Assembly: GCA_938005545.1 (NCBI GenBank)
Contig: CALKXV010000023.1
Span: 1 to 64,000 of the forward strand
From: an uncultured Paracoccaceae bacterium
GTDB taxonomy: Bacteria; Pseudomonadota; Alphaproteobacteria; Rhodobacterales; Rhodobacteraceae
Direction: 5' to 3'
Length of the DNA: 64,000 nt
A model generated the notes under the pieces. It did not search any database. It was given only the letters and a program-made list of their open reading frames with translations, and was not told the DNA's origin. A program made the position numbers and the translations under genes. Numbering within the stretch: position 1 is the first letter of the stretch; each line of letters begins with the position of its first letter. Positions 38,551 to 64,000 of this stretch are shown piece after piece.

Positions 38551-39867
38551 TTACAGCAGGCTTTGCGGAAGCCAGTTTGCAAGGCTCGGGAAGACCACCA
38601 CAAGGATCGCAACGATCAGGATCATGATCCAATAGGGAATTGCGCCTTTGAAGATCATTCCAAGTGTTACCGTCGGATCGGGCACGGCGGCTTTCACGGT
38701 GAATATCAAAAGGCCAAAGGGTGGCGTCAAAAGCCCGGCTTCGATGACAAGAATTCCGAAGATCGCAAAGGCCAATTCGTCGATCCCTATCGTTGCCGCG
38801 ATGGGGGCAAAAATCGGAACCGTCAAAAGGATGATCGACGTTGAATCGATGAACATGCCGAGGATAAGCCAGATCATGAATAGCATCATCATAATGACGA
38901 TGGGGCTTTCGCTGATCGAGAAGATGCTGCCGTTTATGACAGAAATTGCGCCACCCATGGCCAGAAAACGCGAATACATCGACGCCGTGATCAACAGGAT
39001 CATAATAGGGGCCGTGGTTTTGCCAGCGCGATAAATCGCATCCAACAGTTCCTTGCGGTGCATTCCTTTGATCAGCCCAACAAGCAAGGCACCGATGGCG
39101 CCGAACCCTGCCGCTTCGGTGGGTGTCAGGAACCCGCCCCAAATGCCGCCGATGACAAGCAAGATCAAACCGATGATCGACAGGCCGCTGATCAGTTCGG
39201 ATCGTCTTTGTGCGGCGGGCACGTGTTGAAATGCATCGGGCGCGCAAGCGGGGGCAATGTCGGGGTTCAACTTTGCGGTGATCACACAGTAGCCGATGAA
39301 GAACGCCGACAGCAGCAAACCTGGAAGCAGGCCTGCGATGAATAAGGCCCCAATCGAGATTTCGGTAAGGACTGCCCATATGATCATCAGTATTGACGGG
39401 GGTATGAGCATGCCCAAACAGGCGCTTCCCGCGACGACGCCAAGGGCATAGCTTTTTTTGTACCCAAGCGCTACCATCTCGGGGTAGGCCAGACGCGAGA
39501 ACGTTGCAGCTGAGGCAATAGAGACGCCGGTGATTGCGGCAAAGATCGAATTGCCCGATACAGTCGCGACAGCCAAACATCCCGGAAGCCTCAAAAAGGC
39601 GCGGTTGCAGATCGTATAGATGTCTTTTGCAGCACCTGATCGGCTGATGAATTCGCCCATCAAAACGAACAATGGGATGACGATGAAAATGTCTTTTCGC
39701 AGAGCTTCGTATGCCGTTCCCGATAGGACAGACAAGGCGATGTCTGCACTGCCAAGCATCAGATAAACCCCAAAGGCGCTGGCAACACCCAAGGCGACAG
39801 CCACGTGAACGCCAAGGAAAACCAGTGCCATCAGGACGGCCAGAAAGCTGAAGATTAGGGTCGTCAT
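38551..39867 (-). CDS. TRAP transporter large permease DctM (first system)
   Basis: A 438-residue inner-membrane protein with about twelve membrane segments, the ion-coupled translocation subunit of a TRAP transporter. Family segments: IPLFVLMGEFISRSG, ATVSGNSIFAAITGVSIASAATFSRLAYPEM and GMLIPPSILMIIWAVLTEISIG. The longer frame covering the same strand (38426-40024) is a different reading frame and is not a gene. dctQ is 36 bp upstream. The DctM of the second system (63169) is a close paralogue. Confidence 0.95.
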   Translation of the reverse strand: MTTLIFSFLAVLMALVFLGVHVAVALGVASAFGVYLMLGSADIALSVLSGTAYEALRKDIFIVIPLFVLMGEFISRSGAAKDIYTICNRAFLRLPGCLAVATVSGNSIFAAITGVSIASAATFSRLAYPEMVALGYKKSYALGVVAGSACLGMLIPPSILMIIWAVLTEISIGALFIAGLLPGLLLSAFFIGYCVITAKLNPDIAPACAPDAFQHVPAAQRRSELISGLSIIGLILLVIGGIWGGFLTPTEAAGFGAIGALLVGLIKGMHRKELLDAIYRAGKTTAPIMILLITASMYSRFLAMGGAISVINGSIFSISESPIVIMMMLFMIWLILGMFIDSTSIILLTVPIFAPIAATIGIDELAFAIFGILVIEAGLLTPPFGLLIFTVKAAVPDPTVTLGMIFKGAIPYWIMILIVAILVVVFPSLANWLPQSLL

Positions 39868-39903
39868 CGAGTGCTCCGGTCGGGCAGGTTTCGGGCGGGG
39901 AGA

Positions 39904-40413
39904 TTAGTGATGGGTCAGCGCTTCGTCGGTGCCAAGTTGACCGCGCCAATCCGCGACCATCATCGACAGGTATGCGAAGGCAGCGAAGGTCGCCGTGACG
40001 ACCAACAAAAAACGGATCGGCCAAGTGTAGATGCGCAGTGATCCTTCGCCTTCATATTCGTTCAGTCGCATGGCTTCGATGGCTTCGGGGAAGGACGCGT
40101 ATCCGATAGCAGCGAACAAAAGGAACCCGAGCGCATAAGCAAGCGTTCTGAGGATCCGCTGAGCGAAGGGGGGAAGCGCGTCGGTCAAGAGCGTGGTGCG
40201 CAGCATTGAGCCGGAGTAGATCGCGAGCGGGATCTGAAGGAAGGTCACCAGGATCACCGAATTTTGCAGGATTTCCTTGGTACCGGGCAGGGGGGCCAGA
40301 AACAGAACTCGGCCAAACACATCCACCAGAATGACGATTGCCAGAATAAAAACCCAGATCGACGACAGGATATGGATCACACGAGCGACCGCGACGGTAT
40401 ATCCAAACTTCAT
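39904..40413 (-). CDS. TRAP transporter small permease DctQ (first system)
   Basis: A 169-residue protein with four hydrophobic segments; the start at 40413 follows GAGGTTTCTG. GTKEILQNSVILVTFLQIPLAIYSGSMLRTTLLTD matches the family. It pairs with DctM. The protein is related along its whole length to the DctQ at 62664 (shared GTKEI, NSVM...F.QI, GEGSLRI/GEGALRV). A palindrome lies 67 bp upstream. Confidence 0.92.
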   Translation of the reverse strand: MKFGYTVAVARVIHILSSIWVFILAIVILVDVFGRVLFLAPLPGTKEILQNSVILVTFLQIPLAIYSGSMLRTTLLTDALPPFAQRILRTLAYALGFLLFAAIGYASFPEAIEAMRLNEYEGEGSLRIYTWPIRFLLVVTATFAAFAYLSMMVADWRGQLGTDEALTHH

Positions 40414-40480
40414 CAGAAACCTCAATTGATGGCAATTTTCTTGATACGTTAAGACGAGAGTCCTGCGCGCGCAATAAATC

Positions 40481-40498
40481 ATTTATCAGCTGATAAAT
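40481..40498. promoter_or_regulatory. perfect 18-bp palindrome in the TRAP divergent promoter
   Basis: ATTTATCAGCTGATAAAT is exactly self-complementary and lies midway between the divergent dctQM and dctP start codons. A dimeric repressor (GntR/FadR- or IclR-type) is the likely binder, coordinating both halves of the transporter. No regulator gene is adjacent, so the cognate protein must be encoded elsewhere. The GntR sites at 59117 and 59259 are different. Confidence 0.7.
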
Positions 40499-40592
40499 CT
40501 TCACTAGGGTTGGATCGACGGAGGGCGCGGCGTGGGCCGAAGGTTTCTCCTGATACGACAAGAACAGGGCAAAATGCCCATTGGGAGGAACC

Positions 40593-41666
40593 ATGAAGCT
40601 TCGTTTTAGCCACTGTGCGATTCCAGCGATCGCCGCACTTTTAGCATCGGCACTGCCAGCTGCCGCAGATACATTCACCTTGCGCATCGGCTCGGGGCAT
40701 CCGAAAGGGCCAGCGCCTTATGTGACGACCATGTCGGATTTCTTTGCCGTCGAAGTGTCGCGACGTGTGGAGGAGGAAACTGACCACAAGGTGGAATTCA
40801 TCGAAGCCTATGGCGGGTCTATTGCCGGTGTCGCGGATACGCTTGAATCCGTTCAACAGGGCATTCTGGACATCGGCGGATTCTGCATTTGCTTTGAACC
40901 GTCAAAGATGTTCCTGCACAACTTTCCGTATTATCTGGCGTTCGGACCACAAAATTCATCCGATGCCATCGCGGCTGCCCGAACGGTCTATGATGAGAAC
41001 CCATGGCTGAAAGAGGTGATGACCGAAGAGTATGGCCAAAGGTTCCTGGGTCTTGGTGTTTGGGATAACTATCACCTTGGCACAAAAGACGAATGGGACA
41101 CCGTTGCTGACCTGAAAGGCATTAAGATCGGCGGGGCGGGCCCGAACCTGCCATGGCTGGAATATGTGGACGCGATCCCTGTGCAATCGACTTTGCCCGA
41201 AGGGTATCTGGCGCTAAAGACCGGCGTTTACACCGGTTGGTTGATGGTTCCGTCAGCTTACAACGGCTTTAAGTTCTATGAACCTGCGCCCTATTACACG
41301 TTGATCGGGTTCGGTGCGATGCCAGTTATCATGCTGACCGCAAACGAGAAAAAGCTAGAATCACTGCCAGAAGATGTACGCAACATTATTCTTGAAGTGG
41401 GTGCAGAATGGGAAGAAGGCAACGGCGCCAAGATGGACGCGGTGCAAGCCTTTGGTCTTGCCAAGCTGGAAGAAAACGGCGCGATTATTAAGTCGCTTCC
41501 CGAGGAAGTTCGGGCAGAATGGGCCGAAAGCCTGGTGGATTTCCCAAAGCAACAGACCGCCGAGGCCGAAAAGCGTGGGATGCCGGGTAAGGCGATCATG
41601 CAGTCTTACATCGACGCGTCAAAAGCGGTTGGTCACAAATGGCCGGTTGAATATTCGCTCGAATAG
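40593..41666 (+). CDS. TRAP transporter substrate-binding protein DctP (first system)
   Basis: A 357-residue periplasmic protein; ATG 40593 with GGGAGGA and signal peptide MKLRFSHCAIPAIAALLASALPAAA. Family-like stretches: FTLRIGSGHPKGPAPYV, GILDIGGFCICFEPSKMFLHNFPYYL (C-lobe pocket with two Cys) and KFYEPAPYYTLIGFGAMP. The expected ligand-binding Arg is not obvious (the family position lies in GGAGPNLPWLEYV), as in TRAP proteins for unusual ligands. The last residues (GHKWPVEYSLE) match the end of the paralogue at 61540 (GYEWPVRYEIK). Substrate unknown. Divergent from dctQM. Confidence 0.9.
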   Translation: MKLRFSHCAIPAIAALLASALPAAADTFTLRIGSGHPKGPAPYVTTMSDFFAVEVSRRVEEETDHKVEFIEAYGGSIAGVADTLESVQQGILDIGGFCICFEPSKMFLHNFPYYLAFGPQNSSDAIAAARTVYDENPWLKEVMTEEYGQRFLGLGVWDNYHLGTKDEWDTVADLKGIKIGGAGPNLPWLEYVDAIPVQSTLPEGYLALKTGVYTGWLMVPSAYNGFKFYEPAPYYTLIGFGAMPVIMLTANEKKLESLPEDVRNIILEVGAEWEEGNGAKMDAVQAFGLAKLEENGAIIKSLPEEVRAEWAESLVDFPKQQTAEAEKRGMPGKAIMQSYIDASKAVGHKWPVEYSLE

Positions 41667-49481: not shown

Positions 49482-50531
49482 TTACTTGGTGATGCGATAT
49501 GTGGCCATGTCGGTGCCGACTGTTACGCCACCGCTAAAACCACCTTCACGCACCGCGCCGACGTAATCGGTTTTGCTCAACCCGCCTCCGTCGATCGGAT
49601 ACGGGACTTGGCGGGCTGCACCCATAGGCGGGATCAGGTGGGTTAGCATCAGGTGCCCGACGCCTGCGCGATCAGACAGGCTTCCCAGATCCGTGGCCGT
49701 GCTTTGCCGGAAGTAAATCGGGGGCGGAAATCCAGTTGAGCCGTCCGGGCCCATCACCGGGTGAATAACCGAATGCACCAGAATGTCGGCATTTTTGCTG
49801 AGGGTTTCAACCTGATCAGAAGTCGACGTCGCGCGCGGTGGTTTGCGTGCGTCATTTCCCGCATCCCCGCCGATCACGACACTACCGGCAGGCGTGTCGA
49901 CACGGTACGATGCGTGGCCAGGAACATGGGTGGATCGGACCGCTGAGACTGTTACGTCGTCCTTTTGCCAAACAACTTGCGGGTCATTCGTTGGATCAAA
50001 CGTCACGGCATTCATCAGATCGGCAGGCCCGCCTGCAAGTCGTTTTGGGTTTTCAACCAACCGCTGTGCCATTTCGCCGGAGGAGATCAGAGCGTCGCCA
50101 ATCGAACCGACAAAATTGGCGCAACTCAAGATGTGACCCGCCGGTGATTTCGCATCATTGCTGCAAACGACGTCCAGCTTGGGTCCGGCAGAATTAAAGT
50201 GCCAGCGCAATTGCGCCATGTCGATCAGGCCTTCGGAGTGATCGGAATGGATATGCGTAAAGAACACCGCATTTAAGCGGCCAACGGGAACGCGCGCTTT
50301 GGAAAGTTGCTGTGTGGTTCCGCGCCCTGCATCGAATTGCAACAACACATCGCTGCATCCGTTTTCTGTGTCACCGAACCGCACCAAAGTTCCGGCCCCC
50401 GCTTGTCCCATGAACACCGGCGGTCCACCTTGCGTTCCGGTCAGCGTGACCTCAAGGCATTGTTCGGCGAATGCCGGGGCCGCCATCGTGACAAGTGTCG
50501 TCGTCGCCAATGTTGCGAATAGCTTTTTCAT
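49482..50531 (-). CDS. secreted metallo-beta-lactamase-fold hydrolase
   Basis: A 349-residue exported protein with signal peptide MKKLFATLATTTLVTMAAPAFA. Metal motif THIHSDHSEG (HxHxDH), further ligand His in HVPGHASYRV, Asp in IGGDAG and His in THLIPP, the full zinc set of the MBL fold. Resembles the arylsulfatase/ribonuclease-Z-like group with GTGGP start (GTQGGPPVFMGQAGAGTLV). It acts outside the cytoplasm. Last gene of the GntR-led operon, so it may process the same compound before uptake. Confidence 0.88.
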   Translation of the reverse strand: MKKLFATLATTTLVTMAAPAFAEQCLEVTLTGTQGGPPVFMGQAGAGTLVRFGDTENGCSDVLLQFDAGRGTTQQLSKARVPVGRLNAVFFTHIHSDHSEGLIDMAQLRWHFNSAGPKLDVVCSNDAKSPAGHILSCANFVGSIGDALISSGEMAQRLVENPKRLAGGPADLMNAVTFDPTNDPQVVWQKDDVTVSAVRSTHVPGHASYRVDTPAGSVVIGGDAGNDARKPPRATSTSDQVETLSKNADILVHSVIHPVMGPDGSTGFPPPIYFRQSTATDLGSLSDRAGVGHLMLTHLIPPMGAARQVPYPIDGGGLSKTDYVGAVREGGFSGGVTVGTDMATYRITK

Positions 50532-50585: not shown

Positions 50586-51839
50586 TTAGCCTGTGTATTC
50601 AAGAATATAGAGGCCTGCGTTGTAGTCAGACACATATGCCAAACCGTCTTTCGATACCCAGATATCGCAGGACTGGATCACTTTGGTTCGGTTTGGACGG
50701 CGGTCCATCATCCGCGCGGGTTCTGGGGGAACAAAAGCGGCGACCTCTTTCGGTTGGTATTCGTTCGAGATGTCGTAAACCCTTACGCCCGCATTTTGTT
50801 GTGTGGCAAAGATCAACTGATCGCTGACCATGCTGTCGGGTCGGTTTTCGTGGATGTTGTGCGGGCCGAAATGTGCGCCCTTGTTGACGTAATTCGCTTC
50901 GCTGGGGATTGGTACGGTGGATATGCTGACTGGATTGGACGGTTCGCGGATGTCAAACAACCAGATGTGTTTGATGCCGTCGGCGCAATTGTCCAAGACA
51001 GCTTCGTCGGCGACGACCAAAAGATTGCGGTCGGGCAGGGGCAGTGCATTGTGCGTTCCGCCGCCAAAAGGCGGGGACCAATTTCGGTGCGTGATCAGCT
51101 CGGGTTTGGTCCGATCTTTGACATCCATAATGACAAGCCCGCCATCACGCCACGCACCATAGGCCGTGTCGCCATGAACGATGGCGTGGTGCAGACCGGC
51201 ACGCGCCTGATCTTCCGAAAGTTCCTCACCCGCAGCAGCGTTCATGCCCGGCAGCCAATACCGCCCTGCTTCTTTAGGGTGTGTCGCGTCGGCCATATCG
51301 ATGGTGACAAAGATGTAGTCGGTGAACCCATCAAGCAAAACCGAAGCATAGGCCCAGCGTCCGCCGACGTACCAAAGCCGGTGCACGCCGCCGCCTTCGA
51401 CATCCATAAAGCCGATTTTTCTGGGTTCTGCCGGGTTCGAGATATCGTAAACCGACATGCCCGCTGTCCAGTTTCGATCTTCCGATGTGGTGTCAGCCGT
51501 GCCGACTTTCTTTCCCAGTTTGCCTTTATAGTATTCTTCTTCGTTCTGGAATTCCTCTGCCGCGAACATATTCTTGGCGTTGATCACCAACAGCAGATCT
51601 TCGTGACTTTGCAGATGGATGTTCCATGTGTTGGGCGGGGCCGGAACATAGGCCACCGGTTTGGGATCACGTGGGTCGGTGCAATCTACAACGCTGAACC
51701 CGTCGGAAAACATATGCCCAATAAATGCATGGTTCTTGTTGACCATAACTTGGACGCCGTCTGGTCGCCCGCCCTGATCGGAGTAGCCGAGCAATTTCAT
51801 ATTATTCACGTAATCTGGCGTCGGCAGGTCTTGTGTCAT
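50586..51839 (-). CDS. LVIVD-repeat beta-propeller protein
   Basis: A 417-residue protein without a signal peptide. Repeated strand motifs FSVVDCTDPRDPKPVAYV, MSVYDISNPAEPRKIGFM, LVIMDVKDRTKPELI, IWLFDIREPSNPVSI and VRVYDISNEYQPKEVAAF are LVIVD repeats, giving a beta-propeller of about seven blades. In the middle: GLHHAIVHGDTAYGAWRDGG and HNALPLPDRNLLVVADE with His residues that could coordinate metal. Function of this type is unknown; similar proteins occur beside oxidative pathway genes. It is 24 bp downstream of the DctP-like gene and 54 bp upstream of the MBL gene. Confidence 0.85.
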   Translation of the reverse strand: MTQDLPTPDYVNNMKLLGYSDQGGRPDGVQVMVNKNHAFIGHMFSDGFSVVDCTDPRDPKPVAYVPAPPNTWNIHLQSHEDLLLVINAKNMFAAEEFQNEEEYYKGKLGKKVGTADTTSEDRNWTAGMSVYDISNPAEPRKIGFMDVEGGGVHRLWYVGGRWAYASVLLDGFTDYIFVTIDMADATHPKEAGRYWLPGMNAAAGEELSEDQARAGLHHAIVHGDTAYGAWRDGGLVIMDVKDRTKPELITHRNWSPPFGGGTHNALPLPDRNLLVVADEAVLDNCADGIKHIWLFDIREPSNPVSISTVPIPSEANYVNKGAHFGPHNIHENRPDSMVSDQLIFATQQNAGVRVYDISNEYQPKEVAAFVPPEPARMMDRRPNRTKVIQSCDIWVSKDGLAYVSDYNAGLYILEYTG

Positions 51840-51863: not shown

Positions 51864-52790
51864 TCAGGCTGCGCCGAGTTCTTTGTCAAACAGCGCGCGC
51901 AATTCCGGTGCGAATTGGCTTCTTGTTGTTTCCACTTCTTCGCGGGTTGCATCTGCAAAAGCCGACCGCGTGGCGTCATCGAGTTCGGTAATCTCGACGC
52001 CTTGGGCTCGAAGTTCGGCGCTGCAAATTGCATCGTCATCTTCGGCAAATTGACGCTGGGCTTTGGCTGCCCGATCAACGGCACGTTGAACCCCGGCACG
52101 AAGTTCGGGGTCAAGTGTGTTCAGGCGATTGGCGTTGAACAGAACCAAGGCCACGCCCAACAGGTGCCGCGTCATCAGGATATAACGGTGGGTTTCGTGA
52201 AGTTTAAAATTAAGGATATTCGTTAAAGGGTTTTCTTGGGCATCAACTGTTCCAATCCTGACCGCCTCGGGAAGATCGCGTACATCTATGGCGGCCGGAA
52301 CAAAACCTAAAGCAAGGAAGACACGTTTGTGATCTTCATTCGCCAAAGTGCGCAGTTTCTGTCCCGCGCAATCAGCAACAGTTTTGATCGGTGTCGCGCT
52401 TGAGATATGACGCAGCCCGTTGTCCCAATAGCCCAACACCTCGTAACCCGTGGCCGCCGCAACTTCTTGGCGCAACCGATCACCGAGTATGCCATCCAAC
52501 AGGGCGTAGGCGCGGCGGCGATCCGGAACGACGAAATGCTGATCAAAAAGCCCAAGTTCGGGCACACGTTTGGCCAGATAGCTGGACGAGAAATAGCACC
52601 CGTCTAATTCGCCACTTTCGGTCATCGACAGCAAGTCCGCCGCCTTGTGACCACGTGCAACAATATTTTCATCAAAGGAAAGCGTCACCGCACCGCCTGT
52701 TTCTTCGGCTATGGCGTCAACCAAGACACGACTGCCGCGGGTGTGGACAGATTTGTCGCCCTGATAACCGCCAAATTTGAATTCAATCAT
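51864..52790 (-). CDS. DctP-like TRAP substrate-binding protein without a signal peptide
   Basis: A 308-residue protein with the complete DctP fold from the first residues (MIEFKFGGYQGDKSVHTRGSRVLVDAIAEETGGAVTLSF), then AADLLSMTESGELDGCYFSSSYLAKRVPELGLFD, LRTLANEDHKRVFLALGFVPAAIDVRDLPEAVRIGTVDAQENPL (the Arg and ligand loop). Its ATG overlaps the stop of the upstream Gfo/Idh gene (52787-52790), so there is no room for a signal peptide. It should stay in the cytoplasm. No DctQ or DctM lies beside it: the neighbouring transporter is TTT-type. It might act as an intracellular ligand carrier or sensor, or represent domain recruitment. Confidence 0.85.
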   Translation of the reverse strand: MIEFKFGGYQGDKSVHTRGSRVLVDAIAEETGGAVTLSFDENIVARGHKAADLLSMTESGELDGCYFSSSYLAKRVPELGLFDQHFVVPDRRRAYALLDGILGDRLRQEVAAATGYEVLGYWDNGLRHISSATPIKTVADCAGQKLRTLANEDHKRVFLALGFVPAAIDVRDLPEAVRIGTVDAQENPLTNILNFKLHETHRYILMTRHLLGVALVLFNANRLNTLDPELRAGVQRAVDRAAKAQRQFAEDDDAICSAELRAQGVEITELDDATRSAFADATREEVETTRSQFAPELRALFDKELGAA

Positions 52791-53911
52791 GTGAGTTCAT
52801 CCATCAGTTCGCCCGGATCAGGTGGCAAGGAAACGGGTTGGCCACGCTTGGCCGAAAGATCCATTGCCATGGTCATCAAGAGATTGCGATGGCCGTCCGC
52901 TGCTGTTGCATGTGGCGTGTTGGCACCTGTGTAAAGCCGTTGGTACCAGGAATTTGTTTCCTCGCGCATTGGTCCCCAAAGCTGACCTGCATGCAAATCG
53001 CCCGGTGGATAGCTGGTCAGAAATTCCACATGGCGCGGGGGCGCTGTGTAGCCTTCTGGCGCATAACCGGCACCTTGCACGACGTTGGTGGCCATCACCA
53101 AATCACGGTGCGTGTCTTCGATGTCGATGACACCTTCTGACCCGACAATGCCAATTTCGATCCCGTACACTGCACCGGGCCAAACCTCAGGCAGGGCCCA
53201 GGAAATGTTCATCGAAAACACGGTGCCATCGTCCATTGTGAAAATACCAAGTGTCGAATCCTTGGTGCCCCACGCGCCCAACACTTTGTCGGTTGACTGT
53301 GCATAGACGCTAACAGGTTTCTTCCCCTCCATCAGCCATAGCGACATATCAAGGCTATGGGTGCCCGAGACGACCATAGGGGTCAACGTCGCCCGGTCTT
53401 GGGTGCGTTGAACGGTGGCAATGGGCACCATCTTGTTCATGAAGGCGCGGGTCACCACAGTGTGGACTTCGCCGATCTGGCCTGTGATCAGCCGTTCTTT
53501 CACAGCCAGAAACCGGCGACGGAAACGGTTGGTGTATCCAATGACGGCATCCAACCCGGCTTTTTCGATGGCCGATAGTATTTGTGCGGATTGTCTGGCG
53601 TCCGTTGCCAGCGGCTTTTCAATGAAAAGCGAATGGCCCATTTTGACGGCCAGCATCGTCGGATCGAAATGAAAGTTCTCATCGGTCGCAATGATGGTGG
53701 CAGTGACTTCCGGGCGACGCAGCAATTCGGTGTAATCGGTGGTGAAAAAGTCGGCCTGAATGTCGTCGGCAAGACTTTGGCCAATGTCGGACTTCAGATC
53801 GCACAGTCCGATCCAACCAATACCGGGATATGCCCGCGCGATTTCCGCCCGAATACGCCCAATTGTTCCACACCCCACGATGGCGAGACCGATTTCCTTA
53901 CGATCCTGCAT
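52787..53911 (-). CDS. Gfo/Idh/MocA-family oxidoreductase
   Basis: A 374-residue NAD(P)-dependent dehydrogenase. Nucleotide fold AIVGCGTIGRIRAEIARAYPGIGWIGLCD, the family signature EKPLATDARQ (catalytic Lys of EKP) and C-terminal sheet domain (GTHSLDMSLWLMEGKKPVSVYAQ, with the catalytic-site HxxD motif HSLD). Such enzymes oxidise or reduce sugars, inositols or related compounds. It overlaps tctA by 14 bp and the DctP-like gene by 4 bp. Substrate unknown; it is presumably one imported by the Tct system. Confidence 0.92.
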   Translation of the reverse strand: MQDRKEIGLAIVGCGTIGRIRAEIARAYPGIGWIGLCDLKSDIGQSLADDIQADFFTTDYTELLRRPEVTATIIATDENFHFDPTMLAVKMGHSLFIEKPLATDARQSAQILSAIEKAGLDAVIGYTNRFRRRFLAVKERLITGQIGEVHTVVTRAFMNKMVPIATVQRTQDRATLTPMVVSGTHSLDMSLWLMEGKKPVSVYAQSTDKVLGAWGTKDSTLGIFTMDDGTVFSMNISWALPEVWPGAVYGIEIGIVGSEGVIDIEDTHRDLVMATNVVQGAGYAPEGYTAPPRHVEFLTSYPPGDLHAGQLWGPMREETNSWYQRLYTGANTPHATAADGHRNLLMTMAMDLSAKRGQPVSLPPDPGELMDELT

Positions 53912-55403
53912 GGCTTACCCCCTGTTCTGTTTTTCTTGCACTTCTGGCCACCCGAAGCACGCCTTCGATGACCACGAAAAGAACGGCCAGCATCAAAAAA
54001 GTTCCGATCCATTGTGACAGAACGAACCCCAGAGATTTGTCCTCGAAGATCAACAGCGACCGGCGAAAATTCTCATCTGCAAGCGGGGCAAGAATGACAC
54101 CCAGCACGACCGGGGCCACCGGAAATTTGAAGACCGAGAACATCCAACCGACAACGCCGGCGGCGAACATAATCCAAACGTCGAAGATCGAAAGCTTCAC
54201 TGCATAGGCCCCGATTACGCAGACCGGCAGGATCAAGGGCATCAGAATACCTCGCGGCAGGCTGAAAAGTTTCACACAAGGCCCGATCAAGGCAAATGCG
54301 GCTATGTACATCAGGATATTTGCGACGATCAACGCCGCATAGATGAAGTAAATCAGGCCGGGATGATCCAACTCAATCGTAGGTCCGACGACCACATTCT
54401 TCAATGTCAGGGCGGCCAGCAAAGCCGCCGCCGCCGCGTTGCCCGGAATGCCAAGGGCCAAGGTCGGCAACATCGAACCGCCAATGTTGGCGTTGTTTGC
54501 CGTTTCAGCGCAGACCAATGCCTGATAACTGCCCTTGCCCCATTTTTCCCGCTCGTGCGGTTTCGCGCGTCTGCGCCCGATGTCATAGGCAAGGAAAGAT
54601 GCAACATTCGCGCCCGCGCCGGGGATCGCACCGATGAATGTTCCCAAAATGCCGGACCGTACGGCGGCAGGGGAATATTTGGCCAACAAACGCAAGGGCG
54701 GAAAGACGCGGCCCACTTTCGATGGGATCGTTGGCATATCTTTTGCAGGCAAGGTGCGCAGGATTTCGGCCAATCCGAACAATCCGATCAACACTGCAAC
54801 ATAGGAAATCCCATCAAACAGCGCGAAGGTTCCGAAGGTAAAACGCGGCACGGCGTGTATGGAATCAAGCCCCACGAAAGCCACCAGCATACCAAGCCAT
54901 CCTGCGATCCAGCCCTTTAGCGGCATCGATCCGGCCGCCATTGTGCCCGCAACCATAATACCGATGACAGCCAGCCAGAACATTTCCCACGACCTGAAAT
55001 TCAATGCGAAAGTAAGGATTAGCGGGATGAACAATACAAGCAGGATGATCCCAATTCCGCCGCCGATGAAGCTTGACGCAATCGCCATACCAAGCGCTTG
55101 GCCACCTTCGCCCTTTTGGGCCAGTTGATGCCCTTCGATCATCGTCGGCACTGCATCGGGCGTGCCGGGGATGTTGATCAGAACAGCCGAGATCGCGCCA
55201 CCGAACACACTGCCGGTATAAACACCCAGCATGAATGAAATCGCGACGTCTTGGTTCATGCCCGCCGACAAGCCAATCAAAAGCCCCATGGCCATCGTGG
55301 TCGACAGGCCGGGCAGGGCGCCCCAAATGATGCCCAGGCAAACGCCCGCAAAGGTCATCAACAGCAAAGACGGGGTCAATGCCAGAAGAAGACCGTCGAT
55401 CAT
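53898..55403 (-). CDS. tctA: tripartite tricarboxylate transporter large permease TctA
   Basis: A 501-residue inner-membrane protein with about twelve membrane segments. Family-specific sequences are GLSTTMAMGLLIGLSAGM, GSVFGGAISAVLINIPGTPDAVPTMIEGHQLAQKGEGGQAL and GTFIGAIPGAGANVASFLAYDIGRR. It forms the ion-coupled channel with TctB and takes substrate from TctC. The stop of tctB abuts its ATG (TAG|ATG). The symbol is generic for the family; tricarboxylate is not proven as the substrate. Confidence 0.95.
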   Translation of the reverse strand: MIDGLLLALTPSLLLMTFAGVCLGIIWGALPGLSTTMAMGLLIGLSAGMNQDVAISFMLGVYTGSVFGGAISAVLINIPGTPDAVPTMIEGHQLAQKGEGGQALGMAIASSFIGGGIGIILLVLFIPLILTFALNFRSWEMFWLAVIGIMVAGTMAAGSMPLKGWIAGWLGMLVAFVGLDSIHAVPRFTFGTFALFDGISYVAVLIGLFGLAEILRTLPAKDMPTIPSKVGRVFPPLRLLAKYSPAAVRSGILGTFIGAIPGAGANVASFLAYDIGRRRAKPHEREKWGKGSYQALVCAETANNANIGGSMLPTLALGIPGNAAAAALLAALTLKNVVVGPTIELDHPGLIYFIYAALIVANILMYIAAFALIGPCVKLFSLPRGILMPLILPVCVIGAYAVKLSIFDVWIMFAAGVVGWMFSVFKFPVAPVVLGVILAPLADENFRRSLLIFEDKSLGFVLSQWIGTFLMLAVLFVVIEGVLRVARSARKTEQGVSHAGS

Positions 55404-55970
55404 CTAAAAGCTCCCCGGCAGGGGGATGCGAAACACCAGTTGGAACACCAGTGACAAGATGAGCGTCCATGTGATCGATACGGCAGCCGTGATCCAAATC
55501 GGGCCGCGCCAGCTCAGATGAATGATTGAGGTGAGCGTGAGGATCGTTGCTGGTTCAAAGGCCGTGAGTTTCAGGTTTGTTCCAAAGACATTGAAATTCT
55601 GCTGAAACGCCAACAATTGGAGCGCGGCAATATAGATGGCGACCGCAATCGCCAACAACAACGAACGTAAATCCGTTGACGTGTCGCGGTCGTCGAAAAG
55701 CGGCAATTGAACACCGGCCTTGCGTCTGGTTAGGGCGGCAGCACCAAGACCCAATGCCATCAGCATCAAAGATGCTGCCACGATAAACGGCAAAAGCCCC
55801 GGCGCAGTATGAAGCGCGCCGGGCATCGGTAACCTGAAAGCGGCGACCATGACGGCAATCGAAATCGCGATCAGCAAGGCCGATGCAACAAGATCAAGCG
55901 TGGGCGATGCATAGCCAGACCCGGCCTCTTCACCCTCAAAGGTCACTTCAGGTTGTTTGGTATTTGACAT
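55404..55970 (-). CDS. tctB: tripartite tricarboxylate transporter small permease TctB
   Basis: A 188-residue protein with about four hydrophobic segments (DLVASALLIAISIAVMVAAF, GLLPFIVAASLMLMALGLGAAAL, LLLAIAVAIYIAALQLLAF, PIWITAAVSITWTLILSLVFQLVF), matching TctB length and topology. PGLLPFIV is a family feature. It is encoded between tctC and tctA, as usual. Confidence 0.9.
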   Translation of the reverse strand: MSNTKQPEVTFEGEEAGSGYASPTLDLVASALLIAISIAVMVAAFRLPMPGALHTAPGLLPFIVAASLMLMALGLGAAALTRRKAGVQLPLFDDRDTSTDLRSLLLAIAVAIYIAALQLLAFQQNFNVFGTNLKLTAFEPATILTLTSIIHLSWRGPIWITAAVSITWTLILSLVFQLVFRIPLPGSF

Positions 55971-56024: not shown

Positions 56025-57140
56025 TTAAGTGCCTGAATCAATCGGAGGCGCCACATAGCCTTCCGGCGGCCACCAACCGTCAAAATCAGCCGGGGCTGGT
56101 AAGCCCAAGTCCGCGGCAGTTTTCACTTCGGCCCCTATCTGATCTTGGAACTTGTTGAAGATGTCGGCTGTGATCGCTTCCATCAGCGCACCCTCGCGGT
56201 CCGCTTCCTCGCCGATCTTCACATCCGATATGAAGAACTTGGAGTTTAGCATTTCAAGGAACCCGTCAGAGTTTGCAGCCAGCACGAAGGCATCTGCGAT
56301 TTCCTGAAGCACCTCTGGCGGTAAATCCCGTTTGACCATAAAATTGTACGTCGCGCCAACCGGCAAACCTTTAGCCGCCGGGATTGCAGTGCCAAGCGTG
56401 GGCAACACAGTGCCATCGTCAAGCTTGATATCTTCGCCGGAGGTTTGCAGAAGGTTGCGCAATTCGCCCGCACGGATCAGGTCGATGTGCTCGTGCAAAC
56501 CGCCCCCTGCGATATCGGTTTCACCTTGCAGACCGGCAAGCGTTGCCGGTTTTCCGCCTTTGTAGGGAACGTATTTCAGTTCAACTTCCGCAGCATTGGC
56601 AATAATCAAAGCCAGCTCGTGCCAAACGCCGCCCGTCCCGGATGTCGAGATCGACACCGAACCTGGGTTCGCTTTAGCCGCGGCGATCACATCATCAATC
56701 GTCTGGAAGGGGCTGTCTTTGCGCACCGACCATGACGCCGAAGCAGCCCCAGCTTTGAACGGTAACCAATCTTTCCACGGCGTGAAATCGGCATGGCCCA
56801 TGACCCGAACAAAGCGATTGTAGTTCGCACCACCCAGCACAGTGTACCCATCCGACGGAGAGGCACCCACGAATTGCGTTGCAACGCCGCCGACGGCTCC
56901 GGGTTTGTTCAGAACGTTGATGGTCCAACCTTTGGCGGCTGCCATCTCCTCGGCGAGCTTGCGCATGATCGTATCCGTGCCGCCACCGGCTGAATACATC
57001 ACGACGATATTGATTGGCCGTTCAGGATAGGATTGAGCGAATGCCGCAGTTGGCATCGTGATCTGAAGTCCTGCAAATCCCGCAGCAGCGCCCCCTATAA
57101 AGCGTCTGCGGTTCGGTCCTTTTTCCTTTATGTCGGACAT
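56025..57140 (-). CDS. tctC: tripartite tricarboxylate transporter substrate-binding protein TctC
   Basis: A 371-residue periplasmic protein with a twin-arginine type signal (NRRRFIGGAAAGFAGLQITMPTAAFA), unusual for TctC proteins, which often use Sec signals. Mature part: YPERPINIVVMYSAGGGTDTIMRKLAEEM (family start with the GG.D motif) and ISTSGTGGVWHELALIIANAAEVELKYVPYKGG, the ligand-binding region. A Tat signal suggests the protein folds, perhaps with a ligand, before export. It binds an organic acid for TctAB. Upstream is the AhpD-like gene at 35 bp. Confidence 0.92.
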   Translation of the reverse strand: MSDIKEKGPNRRRFIGGAAAGFAGLQITMPTAAFAQSYPERPINIVVMYSAGGGTDTIMRKLAEEMAAAKGWTINVLNKPGAVGGVATQFVGASPSDGYTVLGGANYNRFVRVMGHADFTPWKDWLPFKAGAASASWSVRKDSPFQTIDDVIAAAKANPGSVSISTSGTGGVWHELALIIANAAEVELKYVPYKGGKPATLAGLQGETDIAGGGLHEHIDLIRAGELRNLLQTSGEDIKLDDGTVLPTLGTAIPAAKGLPVGATYNFMVKRDLPPEVLQEIADAFVLAANSDGFLEMLNSKFFISDVKIGEEADREGALMEAITADIFNKFQDQIGAEVKTAADLGLPAPADFDGWWPPEGYVAPPIDSGT

Positions 57141-57175: not shown

Positions 57176-57769
57176 TCAGCTTTGGCCCCAGCTTGTTTCC
57201 TCAGGCCCTTTGTAATTCTTGGAATTGGTGAAGGCGGTGACGCTGCCTTCGATGTCGGTTTCCATCAGCGCGTTCCAGCGATTGTTAAACCCGAAAAGCG
57301 CAATAACGGCCCCGATTTCAACGACTTGCTCGGGCGAAAAGTGACAACGAAGCTCGGCCATATCTTCGGCGCTGGCAAAGGACGGGCACTGCCCGCCGGT
57401 TACGGCCACGCGCAAGGCGGCACGTTCGGCATCCGAAAAGATCGGGTTGGTTTCAAACTCCCACAAGGCTTCCAGCTTGTCTTCGGGAACACCATTGTCG
57501 GCGCCGTTCTTGAACGTATGGGCCGAGCAATACTGGCACCCGTTCGCAAGGCTCGTGACATGGGCCACCATCCACCGCAAAGGCGCGTCAACGGTTCCGT
57601 CCGAGCGAACAACCGCGCGGATCAATCCCAGAACGGCTTTTGCAATTTCCGGACGATGCGACAGCGTCAACATGGAGTTCGCAACAAAGCCTGTGGCCGA
57701 GGCCAGCCACTCGATATCTGCCTTCGCATCTTCTGATGCGGTCAGGTCAACGGGTGGAATATGTGGCAT
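57176..57769 (-). CDS. carboxymuconolactone decarboxylase/AhpD-like protein
   Basis: A 197-residue helical protein starting at ATG 57769 (GGAGAGGCC). The active site CQYCSAHT fits the AhpD signature CxxCxxxH, found in alkylhydroperoxidase and carboxymuconolactone decarboxylase-like proteins: two Cys for disulfide chemistry and one His. The N-terminus (DIEWLASATGFVANSMLTLSHRP) matches the peroxidase-related subgroup. It may handle peroxides produced by the pathway or act as a decarboxylase; the Cys pair argues for peroxidase-like chemistry. In the GntR-led operon. Confidence 0.85.
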   Translation of the reverse strand: MPHIPPVDLTASEDAKADIEWLASATGFVANSMLTLSHRPEIAKAVLGLIRAVVRSDGTVDAPLRWMVAHVTSLANGCQYCSAHTFKNGADNGVPEDKLEALWEFETNPIFSDAERAALRVAVTGGQCPSFASAEDMAELRCHFSPEQVVEIGAVIALFGFNNRWNALMETDIEGSVTAFTNSKNYKGPEETSWGQS

Positions 57770-57792
57770 GGCCTCTCCAATCAGTTGGTGGC

Positions 57793-58428
57793 TTATGGCA
57801 TGGGTATGTCTGTGACGTACTTTGGCACGTTGTACCCACTTTGCACGGCGGGCCGTTCCGCAATGCGAAGATACCAATCGCGAACGTTTGGGAATTCGCT
57901 CAGATCAATTTGCTGCCAGTCAAAACGCGATGTCCAAGGCCATGTGGCCATATCGGTGATCGAATATTCGCCGCGCCCGCTTCCCGCCATATAGTCGCGC
58001 CCTTCAAGCCGGCGATCCAGAACGCCGTAAAGTCGCCGGGCTTCTTTCGAGTAACGTTCTTCGGCGTATTCCGACTTGCCCGGATTGTACTTCACGAAGT
58101 GATGAACCTGACCCAGCATCGGGCCAATACCGCCCATCTGCCACATCAGCCACTCGATGGCGGCCCAACGATCATCTTTGGGCAGAAACCGATCATATTT
58201 TTCGGCGAGATAGAGCATGATGGCACCGGTTTCCATCATCTGGACGCCGGTGTCGTGATCAACGATTGCCGGGATGCGGTTGTTGGGGGCGATCTTCAGA
58301 AAATCGGGCGCAAATTGCTCGTCCTTCGAAATATCGATGGCGTGCACATTGTATTCGACGCCAAGCTCTTCAAGCATGATTGAGACTTTGCGCCCGTTTG
58401 GGGTGGTCCAAGTATAGAGATCGATCAC
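57793..58428 (-). CDS. glutathione S-transferase (Nu-class/YghU-like)
   Basis: A 211-residue protein with thioredoxin-fold N-terminus (MIDLYTWTTPNGRKVSIMLEELGVEYNVHAIDIS, PNNRIPAIVDHDTG, METGAIMLYLAEKY) and helical C-terminal domain (GRDYMAGSGRGEYSITDMATWPW). WTTPNGRKVSIMLEE is the signature of the YfcG/YghU-type GSTs, which have disulfide-bond reductase activity toward organic hydroperoxides. First structural gene after the GntR regulator, 3 bp away. Confidence 0.92.
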   Translation of the reverse strand: MIDLYTWTTPNGRKVSIMLEELGVEYNVHAIDISKDEQFAPDFLKIAPNNRIPAIVDHDTGVQMMETGAIMLYLAEKYDRFLPKDDRWAAIEWLMWQMGGIGPMLGQVHHFVKYNPGKSEYAEERYSKEARRLYGVLDRRLEGRDYMAGSGRGEYSITDMATWPWTSRFDWQQIDLSEFPNVRDWYLRIAERPAVQSGYNVPKYVTDIPMP

Positions 58429-58431
58429 GTT

Positions 58432-59118
58432 TCAGTCGTCCTTTAAAAGTGTCGCGCGGACAGATTTCAGATGGTTGCGCATGGCTGCGTGAGCCGCCAG
58501 ACGGTCGCGGCTTTCAAGCGCCGCTATGATTTCTTCGTGTTCTGCGAAAGAATGGTAATCAGCCGGTGGGCCGTCCTCCGGAAGCTCCAGCCGCGCCCAA
58601 ACAACCGACACCCGAACCGCGTTCGTGATACGATGCAGTTCCGCCAGCAAAGGGTTGCCCGAAGCCACTGCAATCAACTCGTGAAGGCGGGCATCAAGTC
58701 GTTCGTATTCTGGCCAATTGGTAGCGGCGCGCATACCGTCGGCTAAGTTTCGTGCTTCGGTCAAATGGCGCGGGGCGGCGTGGATGGCGGCGTGGCCAGC
58801 CAGTTCGGGTTCAAGCGAAAGCCGCGCCATCATGGCCGCATGGGGGCTCGTGATTTCCGCAAGCCGCCTAACCAGTGGCTCGTTACTTTTGTCCGCAGCC
58901 GAAGGTGTTCGAAGAAAAGTGCCGCGCCCAACATGGCGCTCGACGATGCCTTCTGCCTCCAGCGTTGTCATTGCCTTGCGAAGTTCACCGCGAGAAATTC
59001 CAATCCGTTCGCACAAATCCCGTTCAGGTGGCAAACGATCACCGGGCGCGGCACCAGAATTGGCGAGCCAACTCGCCAATGCGTCGCGTGATGCCGTTGT
59101 CGCCCCATGGAAGTTCAT
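58432..59118 (-). CDS. GntR-family regulator (FadR/FCD type)
   Basis: A 228-residue regulator. N-terminal winged HTH (residues about 10-70: LASWLANSGAAPGDRLPPERDLCERIGISRGELRKAMTTLEAEGIVERHVGRGTFL) and C-terminal FCD helical domain (DARLHELIAVASGNPLLAELHRI, EHEEIIAALESRDRLAAHAAMRNHL) with Asp and His residues for metal-assisted ligand binding. It controls, by inference, its own ten-gene operon and the divergent alcohol dehydrogenase/TRAP operon: near-identical palindromes lie over its start codon and before the divergent start. Ligand is probably the transported acid. Confidence 0.93.
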   Translation of the reverse strand: MNFHGATTASRDALASWLANSGAAPGDRLPPERDLCERIGISRGELRKAMTTLEAEGIVERHVGRGTFLRTPSAADKSNEPLVRRLAEITSPHAAMMARLSLEPELAGHAAIHAAPRHLTEARNLADGMRAATNWPEYERLDARLHELIAVASGNPLLAELHRITNAVRVSVVWARLELPEDGPPADYHSFAEHEEIIAALESRDRLAAHAAMRNHLKSVRATLLKDD

Positions 59119-60484: not shown

Positions 60485-61402
60485 ATGACGAAAGCAATCA
60501 GAGGAATTTATGCGGCTGCGGTGTCTCCGTTTCAGGAAGACGGCTCGCTCGATACAGCGAAGCTTGTGGCCTATTGCAAATACCTGACGACCGAAGGTGG
60601 TTGCGATGGTGTGGCACCGACGGGCACGACGGGTGAGGGGAATTCAATTTCTTTCCGTCAGAAGATGCAACTTGCCGGTGCTTTCGCTGACGCTGGATTT
60701 GATCCGTCGCGCGCAATTTTCGGCACCGGTGCCTGTGCCACGCAAGACGCAATTGATCTGTCGAAGGCCGCTTTGGATGCTGGCTTTCCAAATGTTCTGG
60801 TCTTGCCGCCGTTTTACTACAAGAACCCAAGCGACGAAGGGATTTATCGTTATTTTGCACAACTGATTGAAGCGATCGGCGACGATCGTCTGCGGGTTTA
60901 TCTCTATCACTTCCCGCAAATGTCGATGACACCAATTCCGGTTGATGTTGCCGTGCGCCTAAAGAAAGACTTTGGCCCCATTGTTGCGGGATTGAAAGAT
61001 TCAAGCGGTGACATGTCGCAAGCCTTGGCATTTGCCGATGCAACCGGCGGCGTCAAAGCTGATTTTGATGTTTATCCGTCCAGCGAAGCATTCCTGTTCG
61101 AAGGATTGGCCAAAGGATGTGCCGGGATTATTTCGGGATCAACCAACGCATTCGCCAATAAAGTGAAAGCCGCATTGGTCGTTGAAGGTGCCGCACGAGA
61201 TACCGCGTTTGAAGCTGTGAAAGAAGTGCGCGCCATGGCGTCCAAATACCCATTGATGGCGGCCATGAAACAAATGGAAGCATGGCGCAGCGGCGACGAC
61301 ACCTGGACGCGCATGGCACCGCCACTGGTTCCCTTAAGCGCAGAACAACAAGCCAATCTAAAAGCAGATGTTGCGGGTTTGAAAGCTCCGGCACCGGCAT
61401 AG
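60485..61402 (+). CDS. dihydrodipicolinate synthase (DapA)-family lyase
   Basis: A 305-residue TIM-barrel aldolase/dehydratase 8 bp after the dehydrogenase gene. Schiff-base Lys in IVAGLKDSSGD, catalytic Tyr in VYLYHFPQ (usual YN.P is YHFP), and PTGTTGEGNSIS, the family GT.GE motif, for carboxylate binding. The operon and the replacement of the usual biosynthetic residues suggest a catabolic member (N-acetylneuraminate lyase- or keto-deoxy-sugar-acid aldolase-like) producing pyruvate, instead of lysine biosynthesis. Substrate unknown. Confidence 0.9.
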   Translation: MTKAIRGIYAAAVSPFQEDGSLDTAKLVAYCKYLTTEGGCDGVAPTGTTGEGNSISFRQKMQLAGAFADAGFDPSRAIFGTGACATQDAIDLSKAALDAGFPNVLVLPPFYYKNPSDEGIYRYFAQLIEAIGDDRLRVYLYHFPQMSMTPIPVDVAVRLKKDFGPIVAGLKDSSGDMSQALAFADATGGVKADFDVYPSSEAFLFEGLAKGCAGIISGSTNAFANKVKAALVVEGAARDTAFEAVKEVRAMASKYPLMAAMKQMEAWRSGDDTWTRMAPPLVPLSAEQQANLKADVAGLKAPAPA

Positions 61403-61539
61403 CAACAGTTTCAGAGGCAAAACCTAGGCAAGGAGTTAGGTCGAGGAAAGCAGAAAGACACGCGACTACATCCGGGTCGATGCCACGGAAGACAGGCACG
61501 CCAAAATCGGATCAGAAATCATATCTATGGGAGGAAATG

Positions 61540-62601
61540 ATGAACAAGTTTTTCAAAACCGGTGCCGTGGCACTCACCGCTGCAAGCATCAGCTCGGCGG
61601 CAATAGCCGAGGATATCACCCTCAGAATTGGGTCCGGTCACCCGCCGGGCGTCGTCTATGCGGGGCTGATGATCGACTACTTTCAAAAAGAACTGAAAGA
61701 ACGCGTCGAAGCACGGACCGATCATACCGTGAACTTTGTCGAAGGATATTCAGGCTCGATCGTCAAGGTCACCGAAGTTCTGGAAGGCGTTCAGGACGGC
61801 ATCCTTGATATTGGCGGTTTCTGCTATTGCTTTGAGCCTTCGAACCTGCCCTTGCATGCGTTTCAGGTGATGATGCCTTTTGGAACAATGGACCCGGAAA
61901 AGTCTTTGAAGATCGCGCAAGAAGTCTATGAAGAAGTTCCGTATCTCTCTGATATCTTTGAAGAAAAATTCAACCAAGTCCTTCTTAGCCGGATCGCTGA
62001 TGGCGGTTATAACCTTGGGACATCTTTCGCTTGGGACGATCTCTCTGATCTGCAAGGCCAGAAGATCGCAGGTGCGGGTCTAAACCTGAACTGGCTCAAA
62101 CTGGCAGGCGTCTCAGAAGTACAATCGTCGCTGGCGACGGCCTATACCGAGATGAAAACCAACGTTTACGAAGGCTGGATCATGTTCCCGTCTGCTTGGG
62201 TGAACCTGAAACTTTATGAACCCGGCCCGTTCTATACGCTGATCGGTTTTGGTTCGATGACCTGGCATGGGCTGACGATCAACCAAGACACCTACAATGA
62301 ATTGCCGGACGACTTTAAAGAAATCCTGCACGAAGTCGCAGCCGATTACGAACAGCAAACCGGCATCGTCAATGCGGTTGAATACGACCGGTTGGTCGAC
62401 GATCTGCGCGGCAAGATCACCGTGACTGAGATCGATCCAAGTGTTCGCAAGGAATGGGCCGAGTCTTTGGCTGAATGGCCGCAGTCTTTGGTCGATGACC
62501 TTGAAGCACAGGGCTTGCCTGCCAAGCAGGTCTTAAACCTCGTGCTCGAACGTGCGGAAGCCAACGGCTATGAGTGGCCGGTTCGCTACGAAATCAAGTA
62601 A
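61540..62601 (+). CDS. TRAP transporter substrate-binding protein DctP (second system)
   Basis: A 353-residue periplasmic protein. ATG codons at 61537 and 61540 are both in frame; the second gives correct spacing from GGGAGGA. Signal peptide MNKFFKTGAVALTAASISSAAIA. It is a clear paralogue of the DctP at 40593: shared LRIGSGHP, GILDIGGFCYCFEPSNLPLHAF, FYTLIGFGSM and EWAESLAEWPQSL. Both keep the CxC pair in the pocket region. The pathway enzymes just upstream (alcohol dehydrogenase, DapA-type lyase) suggest uptake of their substrate. Confidence 0.92.
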   Translation: MNKFFKTGAVALTAASISSAAIAEDITLRIGSGHPPGVVYAGLMIDYFQKELKERVEARTDHTVNFVEGYSGSIVKVTEVLEGVQDGILDIGGFCYCFEPSNLPLHAFQVMMPFGTMDPEKSLKIAQEVYEEVPYLSDIFEEKFNQVLLSRIADGGYNLGTSFAWDDLSDLQGQKIAGAGLNLNWLKLAGVSEVQSSLATAYTEMKTNVYEGWIMFPSAWVNLKLYEPGPFYTLIGFGSMTWHGLTINQDTYNELPDDFKEILHEVAADYEQQTGIVNAVEYDRLVDDLRGKITVTEIDPSVRKEWAESLAEWPQSLVDDLEAQGLPAKQVLNLVLERAEANGYEWPVRYEIK

Positions 62602-62607
62602 GCGAAC

Positions 62608-62636
62608 GCGCTCCGCTGCCAATCGCGGCGGAGCGC
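62608..62636 (+). promoter_or_regulatory. perfect stem-loop between the second dctP and dctQ
   Basis: GCGCTCCGC (62608-62616) pairs with GCGGAGCGC (62628-62636). It is intercistronic and without T-run, resembling the smoE-smoF hairpin in position. Confidence 0.7.
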
Positions 62637-62663
62637 AACTGTTCCCGAAAATTGAGGCGCAAG

Positions 62664-63164
62664 ATGGCATTGGTCCGACTGAGCGACCGGCTCACCAAAC
62701 TTTTGATGATACTGGGCGCGATCTGGGCGTTCTTCCTATGCTTTTTCATTCTGGCTGACATCATCACACGCGCCTTGAATATGCCAATCTCGGGCACAAA
62801 AGAAATCGTCGCGAATTCGGTCGTCATGATCGTTTTTTTACAAATCGGTTTTGCCATTCGAAGCAATTCAATGTTGCGCGCAGATTTTCTGGTCACGGCA
62901 CTACCAAAGCCTTTGCAAAAGGCACTTTTGATTTTCGCTCTGGTTCTTGGTGCCTTGTTGTTTTTCTTTTTGTTGAAGGCCGGAATTAAACCCGCCGTTC
63001 GATCCTTCGTGAATGGGGAGTTCGACGGCGAGGGCGCGCTTCGGGTCCCTGTCTGGCCAACCCGTTGGATGATCATTTTTGGGGCGGGGCTTGCGGGTAT
63101 CAATTACACCTTGTTGTCCATCGTCGAGATTTTCGATCTTCGCGTCGAACAGATGGATCTGTAA
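62664..63164 (+). CDS. TRAP transporter small permease DctQ (second system)
   Basis: A 166-residue protein starting at ATG 62664 (GAGGCGCAAG upstream). Four hydrophobic segments; GTKEIVANSVVMIVFLQIGFAIRSNSMLRADFLV matches the family. It resembles DctQ at 39904-40413 (shared GTKEI and GEGALRVPVWPTRW versus GEGSLRIYTWPIRF). The stop lies 4 bp before the dctM start. Confidence 0.93.
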   Translation: MALVRLSDRLTKLLMILGAIWAFFLCFFILADIITRALNMPISGTKEIVANSVVMIVFLQIGFAIRSNSMLRADFLVTALPKPLQKALLIFALVLGALLFFFLLKAGIKPAVRSFVNGEFDGEGALRVPVWPTRWMIIFGAGLAGINYTLLSIVEIFDLRVEQMDL

Positions 63165-63168
63165 CGCG

Positions 63169-64000
63169 ATGTTCGACTTTGGAACCGCCGGGTTAATCAT
63201 TGTCCTTTTGCTGGGCCTCGTTCTTTTGGGTGTCCATGTTGCTGTGGCCTTGGGTGTCACCAGCGCTGTGGGCATCTATATGGTCACCGGCAAAATGCGC
63301 ATTGTCGAGGCGACACTTGCTTCAACCTCTGCCGAGGCACTCAGGGATTTCACCTTCGCAGTGATCCCTTTGTTCATGTTGATGGGCGAATTTATCGGGC
63401 GATCCGGGGCGATAACCGACATATATGTTGCGATAAACCGGGGTTTGAAAAAAATCCCCGCGCGTCTCGCCATCGCGACTGTACTTGGCAATACAGTTTT
63501 CTCTTTCGTCACGGGCGTTTCTATCGCGTCAGCCGCCGCCTTCAGCCGGATTGCGTACCCGGAAATGAAAGCGCACGGCTATGATCGCGGCTTTTCGCTG
63601 GGTGCAATTGCCGGGTCGTCGTGTCTTGGAATGTTGATACCGCCGTCTGTCTTGATGATCGTTTGGGGCATCCTGACCGAACAATCCATCGGGCGGTTGT
63701 TCCTTGCCGGTGTTCTTCCCGGCATGCTTCTGGCCACGCTTTTTGTCCTGTACATCGTTATTCGTGCATTGATGAAACCCGAACTTGTGGGCGAGGGTGC
63801 GGCGCGAATTGACCACGAAAACGTGCGCGTCGAAGATGGGTTCGACAGCTCGCTGGTTGAATTGAAAACCGGGCCGTTTCTGGTGTCGACGTTCGGGGTC
63901 TTCGGCATCGTCGGCGCTGTTCTCGGTGGAATTTGGTTTGGCGTTTTCACACCGACGGAAGGCGCCGGTGCGGGTGCTGCACTTGCTTTGATCCTTGCCG
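63169..64000 (+). CDS. TRAP transporter large permease DctM, partial (runs off the window)
   Basis: ATG at 63169, 4 bp after the dctQ stop (TAACGCGATG). The 277 residues visible remain open to the window edge. MFDFGTAGLIIVLLLGLVLLGVHVAVALG opens the first membrane segment; AVIPLFMLMGEFIGRSG, ATVLGNTVFSFVTGVSIASAAAFSRIAYPEM and GMLIPPSVLMIVWGILTEQSIG are DctM family segments and match the paralogue at 38551-39867. Complete proteins have about 430 residues, so about 150 residues lie outside. It forms the main channel of the second TRAP system. Confidence 0.93.
   Translation, partial: MFDFGTAGLIIVLLLGLVLLGVHVAVALGVTSAVGIYMVTGKMRIVEATLASTSAEALRDFTFAVIPLFMLMGEFIGRSGAITDIYVAINRGLKKIPARLAIATVLGNTVFSFVTGVSIASAAAFSRIAYPEMKAHGYDRGFSLGAIAGSSCLGMLIPPSVLMIVWGILTEQSIGRLFLAGVLPGMLLATLFVLYIVIRALMKPELVGEGAARIDHENVRVEDGFDSSLVELKTGPFLVSTFGVFGIVGAVLGGIWFGVFTPTEGAGAGAALALILA

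Follow-up and report, generated by a model that had tools for sequence, protein, structure and literature searches.

Among the described relatives of the protein considered here, the closest are the DctP-type substrate-binding proteins (SBPs) of TRAP transporters (PF03480 / NF037995). In one of them, SiaP, Arg127, Arg147, Glu186, Asn187 and His209 take part in carboxylate binding and closure, and Asn10 is a ligand contact (PMC4089482); the role of Arg147 is also treated elsewhere (PMC4646407). SBP-fold proteins that work in the cytosol with another function are known (PMC9602780), as are enzymes derived from SBPs (PMC7683729).

The protein encoded at positions 51864-52790 of the window (the whole 64,000-nucleotide stretch of DNA that was analysed) resembles the DctP-type TRAP SBPs (SiaP, 4nq8, 4p47) in its entire fold, in the Arg147 clamp and in the hinge network Arg127-Glu186-His209, but it differs from them in having neither a signal peptide nor DctQM, in carrying Tyr9, His16, Tyr66, Asp169 and His201, and in containing more Cys. 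With AmiC it would share an SBP fold placed in the cytosol and a role other than transport (PMC9602780), although AmiC belongs to another SBP family and pairs with the antiterminator AmiR, whereas the window protein adjoins a Gfo/Idh oxidoreductase. Cyclohexadienyl dehydratase and other SBP-derived enzymes provide a precedent for the conversion of a binding protein into a catalyst (PMC7683729); that lineage, however, arose from amino-acid SBPs, and catalysis by the window protein is putative. The operon and transporter class are those of TctC/Bug proteins of TTT systems, but here TctC is encoded separately and has a leader of its own. The genes of the region, in the order in which they lie on the minus strand, are as follows.

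58432..59118, minus strand: GntR/FCD regulator, heading the operon (PF07729, PF00392)
57793..58428, minus strand: glutathione S-transferase-like protein (PF02798, 2.7e-13)
57176..57877, minus strand: CMD/AhpD-like protein, kept upstream of TctC (PF02627, 2e-11); the listed ORF exceeds its conserved part
56025..57140, minus strand: TctC, the periplasmic binding protein of the operon (PF03401, 2e-26)
55404..55970, minus strand: TctB, small TTT membrane subunit (PF07331, 4e-08)
53898..55403, minus strand: TctA, large TTT transporter membrane subunit (PF01970, 4.3e-130)
52787..53911, minus strand: Gfo/Idh/MocA oxidoreductase (PF01408, 6.2e-15), overlapping the DctP ATG by 4 bases
51864..52790, minus strand: leaderless DctP-family protein of 308 amino acids (PF03480, 1.1e-54)
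50586..51839, minus strand: LVIVD beta-propeller protein without leader (PF08309, 5.9e-12)
49482-50531, minus strand: protein with a metallo-beta-lactamase fold, a clear signal peptide and a weak likeness to GntH/RNase Z far under the cut-offs

From TctB to the LVIVD gene, neighbours overlap or are separated by short gaps. The TctC N-terminus carries a Tat-like leader, NRRRFIGG...AFA-Q, as judged from the N-terminal sequence and hydropathy. The LVIVD gene begins 24 bases 3' of DctP and occupies the same position in the nearest relatives; where near relatives have it after leaderless DctP, its product shows about 90% conservation. The nearest solved structure to the Gfo/Idh protein is DgpA (7.7e-28); assignment of a substrate from Gfo similarity (DgpA, inositol 2-dehydrogenase, PmdC, 4,5-dihydroxyphthalate dehydrogenase) was too diffuse and was dropped.

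A preliminary description had placed a DctP-like protein without signal peptide at these coordinates, next to Gfo/Idh and TTT genes, with the fold starting at the very N-terminus and the ATG overlapping the previous stop, and each of these points held. In a domain search, PF03480 spanned residues 7-287 (E 1.1e-54), and the protein also scored above the cut-off of NCBIfam TRAP_S1 (NF037995) and below that of TIGR00787. Its AlphaFold model shows a complete TRAP binding-protein fold (mean pLDDT 93.9), to which 4p47 gave the top TM-score (0.93) among the PDB matches listed. The DNA at the DctP start reads ...TGATGGATGAACTCACATGATT, so that the DctP ATG and the Gfo/Idh TGA overlap as ATGA. The first in-frame stop 5' of this ATG is a TGA only two codons before it, and the window protein therefore has no leader in the same frame. 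An upstream frameshift concealing a leader had been proposed as a check; the DNA 5' of DctP encodes the C-terminal part of Gfo, which is well conserved and aligns along its entire length in relatives, and such a frameshift is therefore very unlikely. A leader concealed in another frame was likewise rejected, as Gfo coding reaches the overlap and DctP is still leaderless in two loci (L035 and L036) where a gap separates it from Gfo. Leaderless DctPs are under strong purifying selection (pN about 0.06-0.11 vs pS 0.36-0.77), and a pseudogene reading was rejected because of the low dN/dS. No export signal of the kind found in a DctP transporter part was detected in the window protein by in-frame stops and hydropathy, on which all leader calls were based. 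Nor is it of the TctC type (PF03401 plus leader), PF03480 being its sole domain match.

The absence of a leader extends to the homologues. A scan of genome contigs yielded 27 relatives with 60-87% identity, from Rhodobacterales, Rhizobiales-type families, Geminicoccaceae, Granulosicoccaceae and one Chromatiales MAG. All 26 for which the N-terminus was available were leaderless: nothing precedes their first strand, and they show the motif (G/A)GYQGxxSVH(T/S)R; close homologues with a leader encoded upstream in the same frame were looked for and none was found. Whole-genome searches widened the set to 68 proteins, every one leaderless. When scored against a profile built from the close set, all proteins at or above 203 bits were leaderless and all at or below 143 bits were of the leadered kind, with hydrophobic leaders upstream (one of these, L091, is cut by the contig end, its leader itself being unseen). 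In an 87-row tree a branch supported at 100/99 separated the 68 leaderless proteins from 19 leadered DctPs, and the same split was recovered in a second tree in which nearer leadered outgroups and SiaP were added and the longest leadered rows removed. The simplest reading is that the leader was lost once in this DctP branch, the trees leaving the position of the root unproved. The branch comprises several subclades; Roseibium album and Phaeobacter marinintestinus are among its named carriers. In one alphaproteobacterial order up to three leaderless paralogues occur per genome (21 of 24 genomes), and elsewhere it is rare: 7 of 298 sampled genomes of the family carry it, and at E 1e-40 the window's own genome was the single carrier among 399 sampled from the phylum. 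Plasmid matches had 29-39% identity, and the two that were examined were leadered DctPs with DctQM. A literature search, largely without subscription papers, did not find the branch described.

The genome of the window encodes 16 DctPs. The other 15 all have a DctM match within 2.3 kb, whereas for the window protein there is no DctM nearer than about 10 kb, those belonging to other DctPs, and no DctQM membrane partner lies nearby. On either side of the region lies an ordinary TRAP system (38551-41666 and 61282-64000); since both come with leadered DctPs of their own, we discarded the idea of a local TRAP partner. Leadered control stretches contained DctM in 20/20 and a close Gfo in 0/20. One leaderless DctP, which belongs to the GGYGP subclade, directly follows the genes of a TAXI-type SBP and a fused DctM (L117, 5308-9385); this adjoining TAXI-TRAP system has its own leadered binding protein.

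Of the 26 relatives with DNA 5' of the leaderless DctP, 23 have TctA and Gfo/Idh ahead of it within about 1.3 kb, and these 23 loci span Alpha- and Gammaproteobacteria; in one further relative (L041) the pair was about 8 kb away, and in the remaining two (L021, L024) neither TctA nor Gfo was found near DctP in the stretch examined. In the 298 family genomes a close Gfo was present in 7, a leaderless DctP in 7 and both in 6 (p about 5e-11, hypergeometric, relatedness not corrected for). One exception, G593, has a leaderless DctP without a close Gfo; the other, G398, has a close Gfo without DctP and a fragmented TctA. The latter genome holds a decayed copy of the operon (L158, 7792-9418), in which TctA is in three fragments, DctP is gone and Gfo/Idh is intact (87% identity). 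Distant subclades have catabolic neighbours: VOC, acyl-CoA-dehydrogenase-like, amidohydrolase, HIBADH, FMN-dependent dehydrogenase (FMN_dh), GMC oxidoreductase, Ldh_2 and a ThDP enzyme. A conserved protein of ~245 amino acids with no Pfam match stands beside leaderless DctPs of two other subclades (L054, 7905-8642; L118, 8974-9807). In Roseibium and others (L025-L026, L028-L032) a second, different TTT set follows 3' of the leaderless DctP, its TctA having about 31% identity to the first TctA and about 61% to that of L053.

For the ligand site we numbered residues by a SiaP sequence identical, letter for letter, to PDB 2cex. R127, R147, E186, N187 and H209 of SiaP recur under identical numbering in the window protein, with 93-100% conservation across the branch (n=68), R147 being present in 68/68. 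In addition, the branch has residues of its own: Y9, Y66 and Gly47 are at 100% and at 0% in the near leadered set, H16 (97%), H201 (96%) and Tyr71 (96%) are absent from that set, and D169 (94%) is rare among leadered DctPs. Y9 aligns with SiaP Asn10. Leaderless protein bodies contain on average 3.4 Cys, compared with 0.7 in leadered DctPs, as expected of a reducing compartment.

The preliminary description had also suggested that this binding protein is cytoplasmic and does something other than transport. This reading is supported, at the level of sequence, because the homologues lack a leader, DctM/DctQ are missing, the operon has a leadered TctC, Cys content is high and Gfo/Idh is linked. 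The safest statement is that the leaderless branch would be cytosolic and no transport component, and a cytosolic location is very probable. The ligand is likely a carboxylate, and a role on an intracellular carboxylate is favoured because the clamp is intact, new ionisable residues are conserved and the setting is catabolic. Our explanation as a whole, which we judge somewhat better than even, is that a single loss of the signal peptide turned a periplasmic TRAP binding protein into a cytosolic one, which serves in carboxylate catabolism. TctC would bind an organic acid outside the cell and TctAB would import it; inside, the leaderless DctP would clamp the acid or its product through Arg127/Arg147/Asn187 and Venus-flytrap closure, beside the Gfo/Idh dehydrogenase. 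Taken jointly, a site that is catalytic (of lyase, isomerase or hydratase type) or that presents substrate to Gfo/Idh is the reading we consider probable, whereas an enzyme, taken alone, is slightly less likely than not; the candidate catalytic residues would be Tyr9, His16, Tyr66, Asp169 and His201. On the other hand, the branch-specific residues could mark a new ligand rather than catalysis, and no one reaction obviously fits all the leaderless subclades, whose gene settings differ. The role that we rank first is that of an enzyme or of a partner presenting substrate to Gfo/Idh, and second that of an AmiC-like sensor.

Such a cytosolic sensor would bind the imported acid and control the operon, for example via GntR/FCD or another partner. 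The intact clamp and hinge network, the regulator heading the operon and the AmiC-AmiR precedent (PMC9602780) are consistent with it. Still, a sensor is unlikely: the conserved neighbour is Gfo/Idh and not the regulator, and GntR/FCD proteins usually bind their effectors themselves. Slightly less likely again is a passive role as store or chaperone, in which the protein would buffer a reactive intermediate and pass it to enzymes with no catalysis of its own: it would suit a complete binding site for which no reaction was identified, but the several ionisable residues newly fixed over deep divergence may exceed what binding needs. The SBP fold and the transporter operon could also point to a second SBP for TctAB, one that leaves the cytosol through a pathway so far unrecognised or with a partner that carries it; this is highly improbable given a leader in 0/68, the leadered TctC already present, the high Cys content and the pairing of DctP-type SBPs with DctQM, not TctAB. 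Finally, a leaderless SBP is unusual enough to raise a wrong start, a concealed frameshift or a decaying gene, which no computed result favours and which the in-frame stop two codons before the ATG, the identical leaderless start in relatives from other orders and another class, and the strong purifying selection reduce to a negligible chance.

Returning to a cytosolic protein of carboxylate catabolism, we tentatively propose that the branch is an undescribed enzyme family of single origin from TRAP SBPs, acting with Gfo/Idh dehydrogenases on carboxylates imported by TTT systems. Since SBPs are annotated from the domain only, the leaderless branch is counted among transport proteins, and domain models file it as TRAP transporter substrate-binding protein. 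If it is cytosolic, these annotations would be wrong and counts of TRAP transporters inflated, and the branch would offer a new, testable case of an SBP turned enzyme or sensor, in which binding-site residues are intact and near outgroups are at hand for comparison. It would further indicate that the Alpha- and Gammaproteobacteria concerned, of which many are marine, have a carboxylate pathway yet to be characterised.
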